Shown here: positions 52,055 to 52,624 of the stretch, in pieces | How the letters are laid out: every line of letters starts with the position of its first letter | How positions within the stretch are numbered: position 1 is the first letter of the stretch | DNA from: Hyphomicrobiales bacterium | GTDB taxonomy: Bacteria > Pseudomonadota > Alphaproteobacteria > Rhizobiales > Xanthobacteraceae | Assembly: GCA_003135415.1 (NCBI GenBank) | Contig: PLBP01000015.1 | Location: forward strand, 7,620 to 71,619 | Reading direction: 5' to 3' | DNA: 64,000 bases | Made by a program: the position numbers and the translations under genes | The notes under the pieces: model-generated | The model's input: only the letters and a program-made list of their open reading frames with translations | Told to the model about the DNA's origin: nothing | The model's database searches: none

Positions 52055-52624
52055 CTATTCCGGGTCGAATTGACCGGTGATTTCCGAATGAGGGTCGACA
52101 GGCCTGCCGAGCAAGGGTGTCAGCATTTTTTGAAGCCCTGCGATGAGATGGTTAGTTTCGCGCGCACGCTCGGTAAGGTCTTTGATTTGGTCGTCTTTAA
52201 CTGTGACTTGGCTTCGTAAAAATTCATTCTCCCCTTCCAGGCGTTCGATATAGCGCGTGTCTGCTGCGACAGGTCGCGACAGGTCGGGACCTATCGGAGG
52301 TTCCCATCGCTGCTCGTCGGGGCTCTCTTTCAATGCTGTGCTTTCCGCGACATGTCGCGACGTGTCGCGAATAGTCGCGGCGGGTTTTACTTCTTCGATG
52401 TAGGCGATGTGCTTTGCAACGGAGGCCGGAGCGATAAGAAACTTCTCACCAAAGGACGTCTCAATGCGCCGGCAATCCAGATGACCCTTGGCGCAATAGC
52501 GTTGGATGCTACGCGCTGTACGTGGATGCCCGGCGTGTTCGTACCGGGTCGCCGCCTCGTCGATGGAGAGGGAATATTCGCTGTCGGGGATAGTCGCGGC
52601 TGGTCGCGACAAGTCGTCTGTCAT
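52055..52624 (-). CDS. KfrA-like DNA-binding coiled-coil protein
   Basis: HTH region [63 protein letters not shown] then coiled coil [27 protein letters not shown]. Confidence 0.65.
52263..52622. repeat. three clusters of 10-bp-phased GTCGCGNNNN repeats within the KfrA-like gene
   Basis: A 52263-52292 gctgcgacag gtcgcgacag gtcgggacct; B 52344-52383 tccgcgacat gtcgcgacgt gtcgcgaata gtcgcggcgg; C 52583-52622 gtcggggata gtcgcggctg gtcgcgacaa gtcgtctgtc. Confidence 0.85.

Follow-up and report, generated by a model that had tools for sequence, protein, structure and literature searches.

The gene treated here (gene A, Table 1) lies in a window, i.e., the whole stretch of 64 kb of DNA that was analysed, and raises the question of whether short repeats inside a coding sequence are kept for the encoded peptide or as sites in the DNA itself, and, if they are sites, which protein binds them and to what end. 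The first-pass annotation had reported three clusters of decamers at exact 10-bp steps within this gene and had read them as a possible binding array for the encoded protein.

Layout and unit of the decamer arrays

The three clusters were recovered where they had been placed before, both in the sequence and by TRF (period 10 at 52266-52290 and 52346-52379), as well as with a position matrix trained on homologues, the window being excluded from training. On the coding strand of gene A, CGAC is found at positions 8, 18, 28, and 38 in cluster 1 (52583-52616 in the window), which is situated immediately downstream of the start codon, at positions 247, 257, and 267 in cluster 2, and at positions 338 and 348 in cluster 3. 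The peaks of the clusters in the homologue-trained matrix amount to 29-35, compared with a top score of 17.7 in twenty 64-kb Markov sequences. Concerning the repeat unit, the decamer and its 10-bp steps stand as originally described, whereas the conserved unit is not GTCGCGNNNN: the consensus is GTCGCGACNN, a near-palindrome with the core CGAC, and this right half is its strongest part (C.99, G.99, A.95, C.99).

Taken by itself, the hexamer GTCGCG shows no enrichment in the window (122 occurrences vs. 118 expected); the signal therefore lies in the 10-bp phasing. Pairs of GTCGCGAC at exactly 10-bp spacing, with at most one mismatch per unit, occur four times in the whole 64 kb, all of them within the gene A ORF. 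In the genome to which the window belongs, GTCGCGNNNNGTCGCG is present at just a few places besides gene A.

Table 1. Positions of the features discussed in the text (window coordinates)
Feature	Position	Strand	Description	Matrix score
Gene A	52055..52624	-	ORF, 189 aa	
Array cluster 1	52583..52622	-	four CGAC units, 10-bp steps; codons about 3-14	30.8
Array cluster 2	52344..52383	-	four units, in the HTH-helix linker	35.0
Array cluster 3	52263..52300	-	two to three units, directly before long helix	29.1
TGGGGATAA element	52664..52672	-	48 bp upstream of gene A start codon	
Gene B	48741..49097	-	118-aa HTH_36 protein (Pfam); PHROGs replication initiation, E 1.4e-12	
Array 4	37788..37825	-	5' coding end of Replic_Relax gene	26.6
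Replic_Relax gene	36863..37843	-	PF13814, Pfam E 1.6e-17; bears array 4	
TraD/HerA-like ATPase gene	38000..40096	-	upstream of Replic_Relax; weak TrwB/DUF87 matches	
AlpA-type regulator	54000..54299	-	Pfam E 1.7e-7	
Tyrosine recombinase (integrase)	54306..55499	-	Pfam Phage_integrase E 2.2e-10	
Att-like end	29171..29198	.	28-bp perfect direct repeat inside tRNA-Arg(cct)	
Other att-like end	55600..55627	.	second 28-bp repeat copy, adjoins integrase	

Relatives of gene A

A scan of species genomes yielded 34 loci related to gene A, nearly all of them from Rhizobiales (among others Xanthobacteraceae, Bradyrhizobium, Methylocystis, Rhodoplanes, and Pseudolabrys); the last of the 34, a weak Methanoculleus match, was excluded. 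Decamers are found in every relative examined, and genes of sufficient length share all three locations, near gene positions 14/24, 243-273, and 344/354. Several genomes harbour more than one such element, the arrays being the same.

Searches by tblastn with the products of gene A, of gene A from the loci L029 and L055, of gene B, and of the RPA gene found no relatives in plasmids, and none of gene A in phages; matches to Enterococcus at E near 1 were dismissed as chance. Neither did a profile scan of IMG/VR detect relatives, and the three-unit decamer pattern was absent from the viral contigs. The two-unit pattern matched five of the 397 genomes of the order, the reversed control three. Among these five, only L044/L055 is a true diverged homologue, the others looking like chance occurrences in ordinary genes. 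A literature search for GTCGCGAC returned nothing relevant.

Constraint on the DNA

The earlier suggestion that the array goes beyond what the codons need was borne out. Across the gene A set, 118 adjacent units are exactly 10 bp apart, compared with 11.8 +- 3.1 (maximum 22) after synonymous codons were permuted within each gene such that protein and codon usage were kept, and exact octamers number 102 vs. 20.5 +- 3.6 in the same shuffles, which rules out chance or ordinary codon bias as the source of the phasing. Among pairs of relatives less than 85% identical, the chance that the same residue is encoded by the same codon is 1.00 in the motif-core codons A9, A10, A83, R86, and V92, and falls to 0.30 at P8 and 0.27 at T11, the free bases of both codons being situated in the NN spacer. 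The corresponding rates in the HTH (0.40) and in the helix (0.37) are close to codon homozygosity (0.27-0.37; about 0.36 for the HTH), so that synonymous sites of these two parts are saturated. Furthermore, within the motif xDx[SP]R the residue preceding D can be any of 12 amino acids, while 93 of the 99 codons at this place end in C; the comparable figure for codons before other D residues is 188 of 340. The 10-bp unit runs through all reading frames. Homologues that keep the peptide and scramble the decamers by synonymous changes were not seen; the relatives show the opposite.

Since the core codons are frozen, the wobble of the spacer is free, and the C is kept behind changing residues, the array is a feature of the DNA. 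That the coding sequence of gene A is of dual use, with a DNA-level array laid into the protein code, is thus well supported and, as judged from the sequences, almost certain. Selection at the level of the peptide as the sole cause was rejected on account of the codon-level constraint and the C-ending codons. The NN spacers likewise argue against recent tandem slippage, which was also rejected: 15 of the 16 dinucleotide types occur, and adjacent units share the same one in only 1 of 37 cases.

Arrays outside gene A

Besides clusters 1-3, the matrix trained without the window finds only one further array in the 64 kb. This array 4, which is not contained in the first-pass annotation, has CGAC at +22, +32, +42, and +52 relative to the ATG (37843) of the Replic_Relax gene, which is unrelated to gene A. 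Its phase is shared by three other loci (L077, L078, L079), and in a fourth (L088) the corresponding place also bears an array, while in L081/L107, in L105, and more weakly in L089 it is the 3' end of the TraD-like gene immediately preceding Replic_Relax that carries an array. Of the Replic_Relax genes with a link to gene A, about half are without an array; the second site is therefore frequent rather than universal. In L026, L028, and L029, a decamer pair is situated in non-coding DNA about 14 bp past gene A, before an RPA-type replication gene. Otherwise, arrays of comparable strength are nearly absent from 362 kb of elements and their flanks, shuffles of the same DNA giving 0-2.

Two explanations that would need no binding protein can be weighed here. 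The repeat might be selected at the protein level, with SRxVAT-type peptides acting in disordered tails and the DNA pattern merely following; indeed, peptides of the form PDxSRPVAT recur in the tails encoded by gene A, Replic_Relax, and the TraD-like gene. However, any translated 10-bp repeat automatically yields a cycle of 10 residues, the arrays also exist in non-coding DNA, and the pattern of frozen core codons, free spacer wobble, and conserved C described above is not that of a peptide under selection, such that this explanation appears very improbable. Equally, a short selfish or slippage-made palindromic repeat might be tolerated in disordered regions, comparable to the Rickettsia palindromic elements and PARCELs. 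The unit is palindromic and sits in disordered parts, and palindromic repeats in coding sequences are known (PMC2996958), but here the positions are fixed in 30-odd genes across families, the NN spacers differ between neighbours around a constant core, and there are practically no other copies, be it in the 362 kb of elements and flanks or in the genome of the window. We consider this origin highly unlikely.

Two further occurrences of phased decamers were observed. In L014 (5295-5330), they are found about 740 bp past gene A, after an apparent insertion and ahead of the gene B promoter. In two phage contigs (L068:6219-6290 and L070:4570-4640), the linker of a phage gene contains several 10-bp-phased GTCGCGACAA units, which in L068 comprise two exact units plus degenerate ones; as the sequence of this phage gene is unrelated to gene A, it is possibly an independent array in a coding sequence.

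The gene A protein

For the gene A product (protein A), the AlphaFold model, built with 29 relatives, predicts a decamer-coded N-terminal tail, a winged HTH (about residues 15-79), a disordered, likewise decamer-coded linker (about 80-119), and a long helix (120-172). The pLDDT is mostly above 90 in the HTH/wing (21-79 in the model) and in the helix, and low in the linker (84-115), which is encoded by clusters 2 and 3. The prediction agrees with the HTH-coiled-coil protein initially proposed. Membership in the KfrA family, to which the label KfrA-like had pointed, is not supported by the Pfam search and was rejected: no family exceeds the cut-off, and KfrA_N is not listed even at E 0.1. Altogether, the family libraries give protein A no name. 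A profile search against the PDB returned coiled-coil matches only, and Foldseek nothing below E 0.001, the best matches being winged-helix proteins such as PadR, with weak resemblance.

There is nonetheless a general likeness to KfrA (RA3 IncU, R751 IncP), which combines an N-terminal HTH with a long alpha-helical tail and short direct repeats. The target of KfrA from RA3 consists of five 9-bp direct repeats, and the protein is an autoregulator tied to plasmid maintenance (PMC7783346). In KfrA the repeats extend over the promoter only, whereas those of gene A are 10-bp near-palindromes within the coding sequence as well as in a second gene; moreover, the helix of protein A is much shorter.

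Integrative element and neighbouring genes

Gene A is situated inside a 26.4-kb integrative element, as indicated by an integrase and by flanking 28-bp att-like perfect direct repeats at a tRNA gene. The G+C content is near 0.50 within the element vs. about 0.60 outside. The element contains gene A and gene B, the integrase, the AlpA-type regulator, the Replic_Relax gene, and TraD/HerA-like ATPases; VirB-type secretion genes were not apparent on informal inspection. By inspection, a restriction/methylation-like cluster with a 1076-aa methylase-like and a 389-aa methyltransferase-like protein is also found in the element (29660-34976).

In most relatives, gene A is directly followed by gene B, which resembles phage replication-initiation proteins, or by an unrelated RPA-type initiator; gene A and gene B of the window are about 3 kb apart, with other genes between them. 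Just past gene B, a hairpin-like unit of 24 bp, ACCGAGTGTTTTCACTCGGTCTAG, is present in three tandem copies (48663-48733). In the diverged homologue L055, gene B, a Rep3 initiator, and a divergent ParA gene adjoin gene A.

The element TGGGGATAA precedes the start codon of gene A by 46 to 49 bp in 20 of the 22 relatives examined; in L025, where the start of gene A is called differently, it is situated at -113. Two of these relatives have the DnaA-box-like TGTGGATAA. In many relatives, GGGGATAA is also situated ahead of the gene B promoter; TGGGGATAA/GGGGATAA is probably a shared regulatory element.

Given these neighbours, the arrays could be iterons of a replication origin, in which case the excised circle would start replication inside gene A and the gene B or RPA protein would bind there. 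Three phased arrays under DNA-level constraint do lie in the coding sequence of a predicted DNA-binding protein, replication-initiator-like genes come after it, and the sites at -48 (TGGGGATAA/TGTGGATAA) are DnaA-box-like. In phage lambda, the O product binds repeats in the middle of its own gene, between the parts coding for the DNA-binding and the C-terminal regions, a position resembling that of the arrays between HTH and helix. Intragenic origins are known from lambda, with the origin repeats of ori-lambda inside the O gene (PMC3985674), and from the rhizobial repABC plasmids, alphaproteobacterial replicons in which a cis-acting site, oriV, is likewise placed inside a coding sequence, that of repC (PMC3155836). 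However, lambda possesses four 19-bp iterons and an A+T-rich region, and repC, to which gene A is unrelated, codes for an initiator and contains a large A+T region, whereas gene A has 10-bp units in three clusters and no A+T-rich tract in the gene or its flanks (40-bp averages 0.30-0.49 AT). Iterons would also leave the array by Replic_Relax unexplained. Finally, the arrays remain constant next to an initiator of unrelated type, and L050 lacks them although its HTH_36 initiator is retained. We therefore regard an origin as unlikely.

Alternatively, the main task of the arrays might be partition: they would act as a parS-like centromere of the excised element, to which protein A would bind. Phased repeats are typical of centromeres, and the L055 homologue, on a Rep3-bearing element, adjoins the divergent ParA gene mentioned above. 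In the Streptomyces plasmid SCP2, the parS site of ParT is contained within the ParT coding sequence (PMC12260392), i.e., the site of a DNA-binding maintenance protein lies inside its own gene, as may hold for gene A. The SCP2 site is, however, a single 18-bp inverted repeat, and ParT has a ParB-like HTH fold and a ParA partner; gene A carries three phased arrays, protein A shows no ParB domain match in Pfam, and in most elements no ParA is found. The ParA gene adjoins gene A in L055 only, and tblastn, which could miss a diverged one, detected no relative of it in the window or in the other loci. Furthermore, the elements with the same arrays that coexist in some genomes would be incompatible when excised if the arrays were strict centromeres. 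A primarily centromeric function thus seems improbable. As far as found, none of KfrA, SCP2 ParT, lambda O, and repABC matches the arrangement of gene A.

Probable binding protein and proposed function

What binds the arrays is indicated by their distribution. They are unchanged whether the next gene codes for the HTH_36 protein or for the unrelated RPA type. Protein A of L055 is only about 30% identical, yet keeps the TVQRYC helix together with the arrays; in L050, gene B is kept at 55-63% identity, the helix is changed to TIRKWA, and the arrays are absent. Hence the arrays track gene A and its helix, not the initiator type, and this covariation, seen in few diverged homologues, points to protein A, which on the sequence evidence is probably the binder of the decamer arrays.

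The explanation that accounts best for these observations, to which we assign a probability of roughly 60%, is that protein A binds the arrays and thereby exerts autoregulation and control of maintenance or transfer, forming a body of the KfrA/ParB kind. Protein A would be a winged-HTH/coiled-coil DNA-binding protein of an integrative-element family, with GTCGCGACNN as its target and CGAC as the essential half. With one unit per helical turn, successive protomers would share one face of the DNA and may cooperate. The three arrays in gene A would occupy the parts coding for the predicted disordered tail and linker, with a further one usually located where the transfer/replication gene Replic_Relax begins or shortly upstream of it. 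Bound to cluster 1, protein A would repress gene A and the neighbouring replication gene, and through the array by Replic_Relax it would control that module as well. The clusters of gene A would suit a larger nucleoprotein body, which may help to keep the excised element or to time its activity. The autoregulatory or centromere-like role put forward in the first-pass annotation would fit the position of cluster 1, the replication-gene neighbours, and the ParA gene of L055.

More tentatively, and with odds that we would put below even, the arrays may represent a dual-coded segregation and control system that differs from KfrA, ParABS, and iteron replicons: an undescribed winged-HTH/coiled-coil protein of an unnamed Rhizobiales element family would recognise helically phased GTCGCGACNN arrays that are housed, by design, in the coding DNA of disordered tails and linkers, both in the regulator and in the transfer/replication genes that it controls. 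If this were true, the linker peptides would be by-products of the DNA sites.

As a natural example of overlapping codes, gene A is unusually clean, its motif being held base by base while residues and spacer wobble drift. It suggests that disordered linkers in regulators of mobile elements can exist chiefly as carriers of DNA sites. The array matrix allows this unnamed element family to be recognised, and the family offers a compact system in which to study the control and segregation of excised integrative elements.
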